Shown piece by piece: positions 2,401 to 32,841 of a DNA stretch of 50,488 nt. The notes under the pieces were generated by a model. It was not told the origin of the DNA and did no database searches. It was given only the letters and a program-made list of their open reading frames with translations. The number at the start of each line of letters is the position of its first letter. Position 1 is the stretch's first letter. Source of the DNA: Acidobacteriaceae bacterium (GTDB taxonomy: Bacteria > Acidobacteriota > Terriglobia > Terriglobales > Acidobacteriaceae); NCBI GenBank assembly GCA_003139795.1, contig PLGM01000212.1, positions 13,292-63,779 of the forward strand. The letters run 5' to 3'. A program made the position numbers and the translations under genes.

Positions 2401-3200
2401 CTTTCTTTCTCCAAAAACCCGCACCCTTCCCCATCTGTCGCGGGTAAAAGCGCAGCTGCAGCCCTATCCAGAATAAGTGTAAGTATACCGCTCGCGGGCC
2501 ATATAAGTTGACTGGGCAGCCGGTCCACGTCGCACGGGCCGGTTAAAACTTCCTTTAAAATAGCGGCTTTATCGGCGCCGGCGATGAGGAAGAAGATAGA
2601 ACTGGCGTGGTTGATGACCGGCCAGGTGAGCGTGATGCGCCAGGCATCTATCCGCGGCACATGATTGGCTGTGACCAGCCTGTTGAGTTCGTGGATGGCC
2701 TCAGTGTGCGGGAAGAGCGATGCGGTGTGGCCGTCATCGCCCATGCCGAGGGCAATGAGGTCGAAGCGCGGGCTCTCGGCGCCCTCCAGGCAGAAGCTGT
2801 TGCGGAGCTCCGACTCGTAGCGGTTGGCGGCAACCTCCGGCTCCAACTCACCCTCCATGCGGTGAATCTGCCCGGGCTTGAGCGGCACTTGGTCCAGCAG
2901 CGCTTCGCGGGTCATGCGATAGTTGCTCTCGGCGTTGTCAGGAGGAACGCAGCGCTCGTCCACCCAGTAGAGGTCCAGATTTTCCCAGGGCATGCGCCAG
3001 CGCCACGGCTGATTGGGGTCGGCCAGCACCTGGAAGGCAGCCCTGGGGGTCGAGCCGCCGCTGATGGCGATGCGCACCCGCCCGTGGTAATCCAACGCTT
3101 CCCCGGCCATCTCCACAAGATACTGCGCCGCACGGCGGGCCAGGGCAGCAGGGTCAGGCTCCACGTAGTATTTGATCTGCAACTGTCTGCCCGCGCGCAT
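2397..3200 (-). CDS. pgl: 6-phosphogluconolactonase
   Basis: Hydrolyses 6-phosphogluconolactone in the oxidative pentose phosphate pathway; 267 residues, cytosolic. Seen in the sequence: the sugar-phosphate isomerase-like motif AISGGSTPRAAF near residue 46, the WVDERCVPPDNAESNYRM block near 78, and LGMGDDGHTASLFP near 151 with the family's conserved Asp and His. The stop overlaps the glucokinase start by 4 bp. The zwf gene that would supply the substrate is not in the window. The last roughly 15 residues (ATDGEGCGFLEKER) form a short extension beyond the usual end. Confidence 0.93.
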   Translation of the reverse strand: MRAGRQLQIKYYVEPDPAALARRAAQYLVEMAGEALDYHGRVRIAISGGSTPRAAFQVLADPNQPWRWRMPWENLDLYWVDERCVPPDNAESNYRMTREALLDQVPLKPGQIHRMEGELEPEVAANRYESELRNSFCLEGAESPRFDLIALGMGDDGHTASLFPHTEAIHELNRLVTANHVPRIDAWRITLTWPVINHASSIFFLIAGADKAAILKEVLTGPCDVDRLPSQLIWPASGILTLILDRAAAALLPATDGEGCGFLEKER

Positions 3201-30375: not shown

Positions 30376-30717
30376 GTCTCTGACCGCTCGATTTCGCACA
30401 TCGGGGTTCACGGTTTCCCACCCCGTCACCGGAAAAAAAGGCGAAAGGATGGGGCACGGAGCTGGTACAAAAACAAGCGGTCGGAGACCTGGCGGAAATG
30501 TCGGTTTCAGGTTTGGGTAGGCCGCATAAGTTGTGCAAAAAGTCTAGAGAAAGGCCCGGGTTGTCCTGTTTTCAGACAGTTTGTTACGTTCGACTCATTC
30601 GACGGTAATCTGGCGCGTGGAGTTAGTCTTCTCTAATATCGGTACAGGCGGGAAAAACTTGAGGCTGCCCATGAAAGAATTTTCAGCCTCGACAATCCCA
30701 GCTCTCAGGAGCCTGCC
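30376..30717. other. Non-coding gap after the second VWA gene
   Basis: No convincing gene. A 17-codon frame at 30671-30721 ends over the next ATG (CCATGA) but has no other support. A stretch around 30445 (GGATGGGGCACGG) resembles one near 25950 (AGGTGGGGCACGG), possibly a dispersed repeat. Confidence 0.4.
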
Positions 30718-30969
30718 ATGATTACCAATTGCGCCGCCAATGAAGGCTTTGAGATCAGCCCACGGTTTCGCCGGACCATTGAAGAGCGGATCGCCCGGCT
30801 GGAGAGGGATGCCGAGTCCGACGAGGCGAAAGTGGCCGCACTCGTAGACGGCGACCACATCCGCAGGCAGATGCGGCTGGTGGCCCTCGAGCGGTCAGAG
30901 GCTCTGCGCATGAGGCTGTTCCTGGATCGCTCCAGCACGCGCCTTCCCCGGCCACTGATCGCGCTGTGA
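30718..30969 (+). CDS. Small helical protein of unknown function
   Basis: 83 residues from ATG 30718, preceded by CAGGAG. It is largely charged helix: FRRTIEERIARLERDAESDEAKVAAL, then HIRRQMRLVALERSEALRMRLF. No signal or membrane segment. I do not recognise the family. The length, ribosome site and amphipathic pattern favour a real gene. It ends directly at a heptanucleotide array, and the next feature is tRNA-Cys on the other strand. Confidence 0.5.
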   Translation: MITNCAANEGFEISPRFRRTIEERIARLERDAESDEAKVAALVDGDHIRRQMRLVALERSEALRMRLFLDRSSTRLPRPLIAL

Positions 30970-30973
30970 AAAA

Positions 30974-31050
30974 ACAGGGAACAGGGAACAGAAAACAGAA
31001 AACAGAAAACAGGGAACAGAAAACAGGGAATAGGGAATAGGGAACAGAAA
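30974..31050 (+). repeat. Heptanucleotide tandem array, 11 perfect-length units
   Basis: Units alternate ACAGGGA, ACAGAAA and ATAGGGA without any break in the 7-nt period. The array lies between the end of the 30718 gene and the 3' side of the minus-strand tRNA-Cys gene. Confidence 0.9.
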
Positions 31051-31123
31051 AAGAAGCCCGGTTCTGAAACTCCGCTCCCGGCTCCCATGAAATACAATAA
31101 CGACGCCTTCTGTCCAAAGAACT

Positions 31124-31199
31124 TGGAGCACCGGGCGGGAATTGAACCCGCGAATACAGGTTTTGCAGACCTGCGCGTTAGCCGCTTCGCCACCGGTGC
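31124..31199 (-). tRNA. tRNA-Cys (anticodon GCA)
   Basis: Full cloverleaf on the minus strand: acceptor GCACCGG (31199-31193) pairs with CCGGTGC, followed by U73 and an encoded CCA ending at 31124. The anticodon arm is CAGGT-CTGCAAA-ACCTG (GCA), and the T arm is GCGGG-TTCAATT-CCCGC. U73 and GCA are the main cysteinyl-tRNA synthetase identity elements. No clear promoter is visible between the gene and the Cys-rich ORF terminator about 200 bp upstream; that space is mostly heptanucleotide repeats. Confidence 0.95.
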
Positions 31200-31213
31200 T
31201 CGTGAAACAGGGG

Positions 31214-31248
31214 TCAGAGATCAGGGATCAGCCGTCAGCCCTCAGGCC
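31214..31248 (+). repeat. Heptanucleotide array (TCAGNNN), 5 units
   Basis: TCAGAGA, TCAGGGA, TCAGCCG, TCAGCCC, TCAGGCC in strict 7-nt period, starting 15 bp from the tRNA-Cys 5' end. Confidence 0.75.
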
Positions 31249-31298
31249 TGTGAGGCCCATAATCTCCGGCTCAACCCGTGTTGCCGTTCCCCGTTTCC

Positions 31299-31389
31299 TG
31301 ACAACTGACAACTGACAACTGACTGCTGACAACTGACTGCTGACAACTGACTGCTGACAACTGACAACTGACTGCTGACAACTGACCTC
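31299..31389 (+). repeat. Heptanucleotide array (TGACAAC/TGACTGC), 13 units
   Basis: Thirteen contiguous 7-mers, mainly TGACAAC alternating with TGACTGC, ending TGACCTC. It lies between the minus-strand terminator at 31397-31428 and tRNA-Cys. Confidence 0.9.
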
Positions 31390-31396
31390 TGAAACT

Positions 31397-31428
31397 AAAA
31401 AACCCACCGCGCCTTGTGGCGGGTGGGT
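31397..31428 (-). terminator. Intrinsic terminator of the Cys-rich mini-ORF transcript
   Basis: On the minus strand ACCCACCCGCC (31428-31418), loop ACAA, then GGCGCGGTGGGT with one bulged base, followed by TTTTTT counting the last stem base. An 11-bp GC-rich stem and U-run make this a strong factor-independent terminator. It acts on transcription coming from above 31430, where the only candidate is the short Cys-rich frame. Confidence 0.82.
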
Positions 31429-31455
31429 CGTCTGGAGATCCTTTGTTTTCGGAAT

Positions 31456-31536
31456 CTAGCCCAGAGAACACGCCCGCGTGGCGCAGCCCTGACAGCAGCA
31501 GCACAGACAGATTGCGGGAGTGGAGAAACTGGTCAT
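31456..31536 (-). CDS. Short Cys-rich reading frame (candidate leader peptide)
   Basis: 26 codons, ATG 31536 to TAG 31456, with AAAGGA five bases before the ATG. Seven codons are Cys, including four in a row (ICLCCCCQGC). It lies between a promoter-like TTGACA at 31626-31631 and an intrinsic terminator at 31397-31428; tRNA-Cys follows on the same strand. This is the layout of a cysteine-sensing attenuator: scarce Cys-tRNA would stall the ribosome in the Cys run. Against this, I see no strong antiterminator pairing, and the CAGCAGCA stretch on the other strand gives Cys codons easily. It could also be a stand-alone small RNA. Confidence 0.45.
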   Translation of the reverse strand: MTSFSTPAICLCCCCQGCATRACSLG

Positions 31537-31602
31537 CGAAATCCTTTGCCTGCCGAGTGCTCTCACAGAATTGCACAGAACCGCACAGGGCAGCATAGCT
31601 GT

Positions 31603-31631
31603 AGGCTATAGCGTGAGCGGAGGCGTGTCAA
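31603..31631 (-). promoter_or_regulatory. Candidate promoter of the Cys-rich mini-ORF
   Basis: Minus-strand TTGACA (31631-31626) is a consensus -35. A 17-bp spacer leads to TAGCCT, and a 15-bp spacer to TATAGC. The inverted repeat ATAGC-CTACA-GCTAT (31609-31595) overlaps the -10 and could be an operator. The predicted start is about 60 bp before the ATG. Confidence 0.45.
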
Positions 31632-31649
31632 GCGATGCCTGGGCAGGGA

Positions 31650-31948
31650 CAGGGCCGACGCATCTTAATTTTTCAACAAACTCCCGGCAGAAAAAGCGAA
31701 TGCCTCTGCCGTTGTTTGTCCCGTCGGAGGGAGCAGGGGCATTCATGCCCCTGAAATCATGCTCGAAGCGATAGGGCTTTAGCCCCGGGCCTTTTATTTC
31801 CGGCCAAGGGATGCCCGGGCCTGAAGGCCAATCCATCAGGCGCTCTCTTCAGGGGCATAAATGCCCCTGCTCCCTCCGAAAGCAATCGCCCGCGTGAGAA
31901 TCGCGGCACAAACTGCCAGCGCAGCGAAGTTTAGATGCGTCGGCCCTG
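31650..31948. repeat. Nested palindromic element of about 300 bp upstream of phzF
   Basis: Outer arms CAGGGCCGACGCATC (from 31650) and its complement ending at 31948 enclose inner 30-nt arms at 31725-31754 and 31849-31878. The inner arms match at 29 of 30 positions and are themselves palindromic (GGGGCAT-ATGCCCC). Between them lie smaller palindromes GGGCTTTAGCCCC (31774) and GGCCTGAAGGCC (31818). No transposase. It resembles a MITE- or REP-type mobile repeat; its right arm ends 11 bp before the phzF ATG. Confidence 0.72.
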
Positions 31949-31959
31949 AAGAGGGATCG

Positions 31960-32841
31960 ATGGAGCTGGATTATTTCGTGGTGGATGTTTTCACCGAAAC
32001 GCCGCTGGCCGGCAACCCGCTGGCCGTGGTGATGAACTGCGTGGGTCTGACGCCGGAGCGGATGCAGGCCATTGCGCGCGAATTCAATCTGTCGGAGACC
32101 ACGTTTGTGGAGCGGAGAGCGGCTGCGGTGGAACAGGCTGAGGGCGTGCGGGTGCGCATCTTCACTACCGGGGAGGAGCTGAACTTTGCCGGCCATCCTA
32201 CGCTGGGAACAGCCAGCGTGCTGAAGCTCGACGCGCCCGATACCCTCAAGGGCGGCACGGTAACGCTGAAGCTCAACGTGGGCGCGGTTCCGGTGCGCTT
32301 TGCCGGGGAGAGCCTTTTCGGGGAGATGACGCAGCGGGACCCGGAGTTTGGCGCGGAGCTGGATCGCGGCGAGGTGGCGCGGCTGACCGGGCTTGCCGAA
32401 GAGGATCTGGACCCCGGGCTGCCGCCGCAGATTGTCTCCACGGGCACGGCATTCGCCATTGTGGTCTTGCGGTCGCATGAAGCATTGGCGGGACTCAGGG
32501 TGAGCCGTCAGGAGGCCGCGGCGTGGCTGCTGGCGCGCGGGGCGCGGTGGTTCTATGTGCTGGGGCCAACCGGCGGAGACGCTCCCGCGTGGCGCGCCCG
32601 CATGCAGTTTTATGGCGGTGAGGATCCGGCCACGGGATCTGCGGCCGGATGCGCCATCGCCTACCTGGTGCAGCGTGGCGCCGTGGCGGCAGGCCAACGC
32701 ATTGCTCTGGGCCAGGGGGTGGAGATCGGCCGGCCGAGCGATCTGTATCTTTTTGCTCAGGTGAAATCGGCGAAGGTCAGCGATGTGCGCGTGGCAGGCA
32801 GCACTGTTCTCGTGGCAAAAGGACGGCTTTTCCTGCCGTGA
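31960..32841 (+). CDS. PhzF-family isomerase
   Basis: 293 residues from ATG 31960, preceded by GAGGGA. The PhzF/diaminopimelate-epimerase-like fold is clear: YFVVDVFTETPLAGNPLAVV, the catalytic Glu46 in NLSETTFVE, RIFTTGEELNFAGHPTLGTA, and FYGGEDPATGSAAGCAIAYL. Members catalyse proton shifts in small cyclic or amino acid substrates; no phenazine genes are nearby, so the substrate is unknown. The in-frame extension to 31861 runs through the palindromic element and is rejected. The element covers any native promoter, so expression is probably influenced by it. Confidence 0.9.
   Translation: MELDYFVVDVFTETPLAGNPLAVVMNCVGLTPERMQAIAREFNLSETTFVERRAAAVEQAEGVRVRIFTTGEELNFAGHPTLGTASVLKLDAPDTLKGGTVTLKLNVGAVPVRFAGESLFGEMTQRDPEFGAELDRGEVARLTGLAEEDLDPGLPPQIVSTGTAFAIVVLRSHEALAGLRVSRQEAAAWLLARGARWFYVLGPTGGDAPAWRARMQFYGGEDPATGSAAGCAIAYLVQRGAVAAGQRIALGQGVEIGRPSDLYLFAQVKSAKVSDVRVAGSTVLVAKGRLFLP

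Follow-up and report, generated by a model that had tools for sequence, protein, structure and literature searches.

Ribosome-mediated attenuators of the trp and his type control amino-acid biosynthesis operons by means of a promoter, a run of cognate codons, the RNA pairings 1:2, 2:3 and 3:4, and a terminator, and amino-acid attenuators in general have known targets among biosynthesis, transport and synthetase genes. T-box leaders also couple tRNA charging to termination; they bind uncharged tRNA directly and involve no peptide. Leaders of this kind are mentioned in PMC2965389. For cysteine, the passages of PMC8632094 that deal with uORFC-8-2 describe an upstream open reading frame (uORF) with tandem Cys codons ahead of cysS in Rhodobacterales. 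The leader described below resembles this element in its Cys-codon uORF, in a U-run that fits an intrinsic terminator, and in the proposed readthrough at low Cys-tRNA. In contrast, uORFC-8-2 targets a cysteinyl-tRNA synthetase gene, occurs in alphaproteobacteria, carries two tandem Cys codons near positions 14–15, and is described in those passages without a tRNA gene as target; the leaders found here stand ahead of tRNA-Cys, peroxiredoxin and other genes in Acidobacteriaceae. A further precedent is provided by the mycobacterial polycysteine uORFs (Canestrari et al. 2020, as cited in PMC13236596), which are cysteine-responsive attenuators of cysteine genes. They too are short ORFs with Cys runs, but they are leaderless, act by translation attenuation according to PMC13236596, and are cited there without reference to a tRNA gene. 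In open-licence PMC full text, a collection that leaves most subscription papers outside, we came across no paper on an attenuated tRNA-Cys gene. What we propose here is a known mechanism acting on a new class of target.

The window analyzed is a 50,488-nt stretch of DNA from a bacterium of the Acidobacteriaceae, a soil family (source genome G000: 6.34 Mb in 412 contigs). A preliminary description had listed a TTGACA hexamer, an AAAGGA ribosome site, a 26-codon ORF with seven Cys codons, a terminator with a U-run, and a tRNA-Cys gene on its minus strand, and all of these parts are present. The -35 hexamer of the leader promoter (TTGACA, 31626..31631) is followed after a 17-nt spacer by the -10-like hexamer TAGCCT (31603..31608), a weak match that agrees with TATAAT at three of six positions. 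The ribosome site (AAAGGA, 31542..31547) was assigned from sequence and conservation. Behind it, the leader ORF MTSFSTPAICLCCCCQGCATRACSLG (26 codons plus stop, 31456..31536, ATG at 31536) devotes seven of its 26 codons to Cys, four of them consecutive, and the run C-L-C-C-C-C (31492..31509) is the proposed stalling site. The intrinsic terminator (31401..31429; region 3, 31429–31418; region 4, 31413–31401) consists of the arms GACCCACCCGCC and GGCGCGGTGGGTT with a folding energy of −22.7 kcal/mol, followed by a U-run (31397..31402). This Cys-enriched short ORF is putatively translated, with a conserved ribosome site and Cys run, and lies between promoter and terminator; the terminator precedes by 197 nt the gene proposed to be regulated, a tRNA-Cys(GCA) (31124..31199, like all parts on the minus strand) that is the only tRNA detected in the window. 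A simple scan of positions 30600–32400 reported neither the leader promoter nor the leader terminator. When the window was shuffled 100 times with its dinucleotide content preserved, no ORF of 15–45 amino acids with at least seven Cys and CCCC arose; composition alone does not account for the leader ORF. Between terminator and tRNA lies a 7-bp tandem repeat (31298..31386, minus strand) to which we assign no part in the mechanism; arrays of 7-bp units flank the tRNA-Cys gene on both sides (31298–31386 and 30971–31055).

On the basis of this anatomy and the comparative evidence below we propose, with a probability of about 0.8, that this tRNA-Cys gene is made inducible by a trp-type transcription attenuator that is specific for cysteine and depends on the ribosome. 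Transcription would begin at the TTGACA promoter. When Cys-tRNA is scarce, the ribosome would stall in the Cys run and cover region 1, upon which region 2 would pair with region 3, block the terminator, and let polymerase read into the tRNA-Cys gene. When Cys-tRNA is plentiful, the ribosome would cover region 2 from the stop codon, or leave and allow 1:2 to form, so that 3:4 would form in either case and transcription would end. The proposed pairings 1:2, 2:3 and 3:4, the codon run, the promoter and the terminator are shared with attenuators of the trp and his type; what differs is the output, which would be a tRNA gene, and the position of the stall codons, which fall in the stretch separating region 1 from region 2. 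The preliminary description had suggested, as one possibility, cysteine-sensing attenuation of tRNA-Cys, and this reading is now supported by the conservation of ORF, promoter and terminator together with tRNA-Cys, by covariation of the 1:2 pairing, and by targets with a role in cysteine supply.

The 244-nt leader, used as a DNA query, matched 15 loci in 14 of 60 genomes; the 14 belong to one genus and include the own genome. At 12 of these loci ARAGORN found tRNA-Cys. TTGAC is common to all 16 loci compared, 60–104 nt ahead of the leader start, and TANNNT can be read by eye at about promoter spacing in the same 16. The leader ORF is conserved, and its Cys run varies in length, in frame, across relatives. 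A covariance model built from 16 leaders identified 45 leader loci across 40 of 80 genomes of the genus (E <= 0.01). Across the class (E <= 0.001) it produced matches in 18 of 299 genomes and 9 of 106 genera, with the own genome and two others of its genus among the 18 and one match outside the family. The named carriers of the motif (15 records) are Acidobacteriaceae or Acidobacteriales MAGs, with one Terracidiphilus sp. Terminator hairpins range from −11.5 to −25.1 kcal/mol across the 58 loci analyzed, and the terminator core is largely invariant in leader alignment A1. In a search of the window and seven loci, Rfam reported no family at gathering score for the leader, the tRNA being the only match in the window; there was no T-box match either, which together with the putative leader peptide sets this element apart from T-box leaders.

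Region 1 (CACUCCCGC, 31514..31522) pairs with region 2 (GCGGGCGUG), with the Cys run between the two. Since region 1 resembles the 5′ arm of the terminator, region 2 (GCGGGCGUGU, 31468..31477) is able to pair with either region 1 or region 3. The preliminary description had seen no strong antiterminator pairing; this has to be revised, as an antiterminator can be drawn in which region 2 joins the 5′ arm of the terminator, with region 1 as the alternative partner of region 2. RNAalifold recovered the terminator and the 1:2 pairing, with region 1 around Thr-Pro-Ala codons, and showed neither 2:3 nor a small hairpin (GAUUCC...GGAUC, 31437..31456, minus strand) that folding and sequence inspection place within the antiterminator, beginning at the stop codon. 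Variants of this hairpin in relatives were judged by eye only. Folded without region 4, the window leader adopts the 2:3 pairing; folded alone, it is not unusually stable (z 0.37); the evidence is comparative.

Pair counts came from alignments that were fitted to a model containing 1:2 and are biased towards it: across all 45 genus leaders (A4) 90.2% of the 1:2 cells are paired and five of eight pairs show compensatory change, and the corresponding values for 36 of the 45 (A2, L095–L103 left out) are 92.3% and four of eight. In controls on the 45 leaders, 6 of 500 shuffles reached five compensatory pairs and none of 500 reached the covariation score. An alignment that included eight chance-level matches (A3) was left unused. 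The 2:3 pairing is nearly invariant, with 86.2% of cells paired in the 45 leaders, and its column covariation is not significant (25 of 500 shuffles pair as well; 81 of 500 for the 36 leaders). At L094, one pair has by eye changed jointly in regions 1, 2 and 3.

The support for 2:3 comes from duplex permutation and from folding with a ribosome mask, both done on 58 of 60 gathered leaders (45 from the genus, 15 others; the truncated L095 and L098 at a contig end were omitted). Matched regions form stabler duplexes than permuted ones (0 of 20000 permutations for 1:2 and for 2:3), both within the genus (43 leaders: 2 of 10000 for 1:2, 0 of 10000 for 2:3) and in 14 of the 15 leaders of other genera, L085 with its match outside the family being left out (390 and 189 of 10000), although shared ancestry inflates these tests. 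Individually, many leaders are unremarkable: for the median leader, 9% of shuffles of its own region 2 do as well in 2:3 and 10% in 1:2. When a ribosome-sized mask covers the Cys run, the probability that 2:3 forms ahead of region 4 synthesis exceeds 0.5 in 44 of the 58 leaders, and 14 do not form it in the model; when the stretch from the run to region 3 was shuffled, 20 sets gave a mean of 10.8 and a maximum of 17 leaders. Without a ribosome 2:3 exceeds 0.5 in 25 of 58 leaders, and masking the stop codon instead brings it near 0, a result enforced by the mask itself. In full-length equilibrium folding the terminator is favored in all states (mean probability 0.86 stalled, 0.98 at the stop codon, 0.93 free). 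Since the terminator wins even when the ribosome is stalled, the switch would have to be kinetic.

The tRNA-Cys of the preliminary description is a second, paralogous copy: the idea that it might be the only one of its genome was overturned by a tRNA search of that genome, which found a housekeeping tRNA-Cys beside tRNA-Gly on contig C347 and the window gene on C244 (32 matches listed, so that other tRNAs were possibly missed). The housekeeping gene is present at full length in 62 of 80 genus genomes, 100% identical in 53; as a query it finds some match in 66, a few of them the accessory gene. The window-type gene occurs at 56 loci in 45 of the 80 genomes with 87–100% identity. In all 20 relatives whose housekeeping locus was examined, the 900 nt upstream contain no Cys ORF with terminator, and no contig with a full-length housekeeping tRNA-Cys carries any of the 45 model leaders. 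At the loci examined, the leader thus never accompanies the housekeeping copy, and the gene under putative attenuation is an optional, faster-evolving paralogue. A Cys ORF 350 nt ahead of the housekeeping gene was rejected: inspected by eye, it falls within an ABC-ATPase-like gene in another frame, and 20 relatives show no Cys ORF with terminator at that place. Among 30 tRNA loci scanned, an ORF with a run of cognate codons and a terminator was seen only for tRNA-Cys, the rejected ORF included.

The window-type tRNA-Cys follows 29 of the 45 genus leaders on the same strand, at distances of 6–1098 nt counted from the end of the model match, which lies ~3 nt beyond the U-run. The distance is below 300 nt in 25 of the 29 and only 6–37 nt in seven. 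The shortest gaps have hardly any room for a separate sigma-70 promoter that would not overlap the conserved terminator, and we infer that the tRNA gene there most likely depends on readthrough. These loci, with a tRNA as close as 6 nt past the leader match, give the stronger argument for an earlier claim that tRNA-Cys lacks a promoter of its own. For the window itself the claim is plausible: the best promoter match in the gap scores 8 of 12 and has no TATAAT-like hexamer, compared to 9 of 12 for the leader promoter. Behind the remaining 16 leaders comes a TIM-barrel gene (7), a peroxiredoxin gene (5, two of them with a cysteine synthase-like (PALP) gene next), an outer-membrane receptor-like gene (2), a solute-binding protein gene followed by a permease-like ORF (1), or a contig end (1). 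Target identities rest on Pfam for one example of each kind and were otherwise assigned by eye. The output of the conserved cysteine attenuator in this genus is, as far as gene order can tell, most often the second tRNA-Cys gene. Conversely, the model detects no leader at 27 of the 56 accessory loci; those looked at comprise three with a second leader type, 11 with no leader in the available upstream sequence, and two with too little upstream DNA.

The second leader type (MCCC...HSGVRKWLG/S) has another terminator, ACCCACCGCCAG, and stands ahead of the accessory tRNA-Cys at L024, L030 and L106. In genome G010 it is followed by rhodanese and tRNA-Cys, in G006 directly by tRNA-Cys; a rhodanese gene lies between leader and tRNA at L024, and a gene also intervenes at L106. 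The terminator region of the L024 leader gave a sub-threshold match to nse_sRNA (33.8 of 75 bits).

Leaders of this kind can also be found independently of the covariance model by starting from peroxiredoxin, which is present at E <= 1e-60 in 65 of 120 family genomes (the own genome has none at this threshold). Among the 64 loci with at least 250 nt upstream, 33 have an upstream ORF with at least four Cys including CCC, 30 of them with hairpin and U-run, and no such ORF was found in ten shuffled sets or on the reverse complement. A looser rule (at least three Cys, CC) gave 44 ORFs, 36 with a terminator; the respective counts for shuffled sets were 1–9 and 0–3, and the reverse complement gave 4 and 1. 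A tRNA-Cys lies within 700 nt downstream of peroxiredoxin at 18 of the 65 loci. Because many leaders precede peroxiredoxin, we considered PBC-28-3, a motif upstream of AhpC. It does not fit: the passages on it in PMC8632094 describe a long stem with the start codon adjoining the motif, and speak of neither a leader peptide nor a terminator.

Other genera have the leader first, then 1-Cys peroxiredoxin, then tRNA-Cys, and under the loose rule Cys ORF and tRNA-Cys occur together at 17 of the 65 peroxiredoxin loci. This raises the possibility that peroxiredoxin or a sulfur gene is the regulated gene, that tRNA-Cys is a passenger, and that the window locus is what was left when the protein gene was lost. 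We consider this unlikely, since the 25 of 29 gaps below 300 nt show the leader kept with the tRNA alone, and since the second leader type stands directly ahead of tRNA-Cys at one locus. As an account of its history, such an origin is compatible with attenuation of the tRNA gene.

The 197-nt gap in the window, the 16 of 45 leaders without an accessory tRNA-Cys behind them, and the 27 of 56 accessory loci without a model-detected leader, many of which must use other promoters, would also fit a terminated small-RNA or small-peptide gene whose proximity to an independently transcribed tRNA-Cys is incidental or only ancestral. Against this stand the 6–37 nt gaps at seven loci, the mutually exclusive 1:2, 2:3 and 3:4 pairings that can be drawn, and the like leaders that precede peroxiredoxin, peroxiredoxin–cysteine synthase and transporter-type genes, all in the same orientation as the leader; we judge this explanation quite improbable.

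The leader peptides themselves vary. Within the genus, the ORF and the Cys run are kept; the Cys codons show too little synonymous variation to prove codon selection, and with mostly one codon in each Cys column, selection on codons and on RNA are not separable there. In a codon table of 35 of the 45 genus leaders (the frame-shifted L073 and L095–L103 left out), column 24 changes between A, T, M, V, S and K and column 6 between Pro, Leu, Ser and Phe, yet the third base stays G in column 24 and C in column 6, each in at least 34 of 35 leaders. Changing residues with a fixed third base in C-terminal codons point to constraint at the RNA level. Some leaders have few Cys codons (three at L092, four at L065), another has 11 (L136), and between genera neither Cys number nor Cys spacing nor the remaining peptide is conserved. 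The earlier worry that the Cys run is a mere CAGCAGCA stretch is weakened by the in-frame changes in run length and by the Cys-run leaders found independently in other genera. NCBIfam returned nothing for five leader peptides beyond one chance-level match. That the nascent peptide senses metal or redox state rather than Cys-tRNA supply, as its richness in Cys (11 at L136) and the frequent 1-Cys peroxiredoxin target could suggest, is very improbable given this variability, the C-terminal constraint on RNA letters, and the cysteine synthase-like genes and tRNA-Cys among the targets.

If a cysteine attenuator does control the tRNA gene, tRNA supply itself would be the output of codon reading. We regard it as reasonably probable that, of the two tRNA-Cys genes, one is constitutive and the other is expressed only upon ribosome stalling at Cys codons. 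The leader would then sense the supply of the very tRNA it controls in a homeostatic loop, within an Acidobacteriaceae-wide cysteine attenuator regulon of accessory tRNA-Cys, 1-Cys peroxiredoxin, cysteine synthase, transporter and possibly tRNA-Sec operons. This raises the question as to what distinguishes a starvation-inducible tRNA-Cys from the housekeeping copy: better charging at low cysteine, different modification, or a role outside translation?

Several minor observations accompany these results. In seven of the 65 peroxiredoxin loci (L149, L150, L155, L163, L167, L179 and L190) a tRNA-Sec lies 79–511 nt past peroxiredoxin, six of the seven being seen as ARAGORN structures, and L155, L163 and L179 have a CCC-type leader ORF upstream. 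The TIM-barrel protein behind the leader at L061, L067, L068, L070, L091, L093 and L097 (Pfam on L061 only) has a TAT-like signal, with an oxidoreductase-like gene next at some of these loci; as a target of a cysteine switch it may, at a guess, belong to a sulfur-sugar pathway. At L068, a decayed tRNA-Cys (27 nt at 89% identity, the rest by eye) lies ~39–117 nt past the leader and ahead of the TIM-barrel gene; it may connect the tRNA and TIM-barrel types of target. In the window, inverted-repeat-like ends (ACGCATCT and AGATGCGT, by eye only) enclose a ~300-nt stretch (31640–31960) between a divergent gene, named phzF-like by eye, and the leader promoter; this stretch is possibly a small mobile element. 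Finally, contig C305 of the source genome encodes, at L217 (~2970–3154), a 71-nt tRNA with an 8/4-type arm and a GCA anticodon next to a second odd tRNA of 99 nt with a long variable arm and a UGG (Pro) anticodon. Allo-tRNAs are reviewed in PMC7609411. The pair at L217 recalls the allo-tRNAs of Acidobacteria (Mukai et al. 2017).
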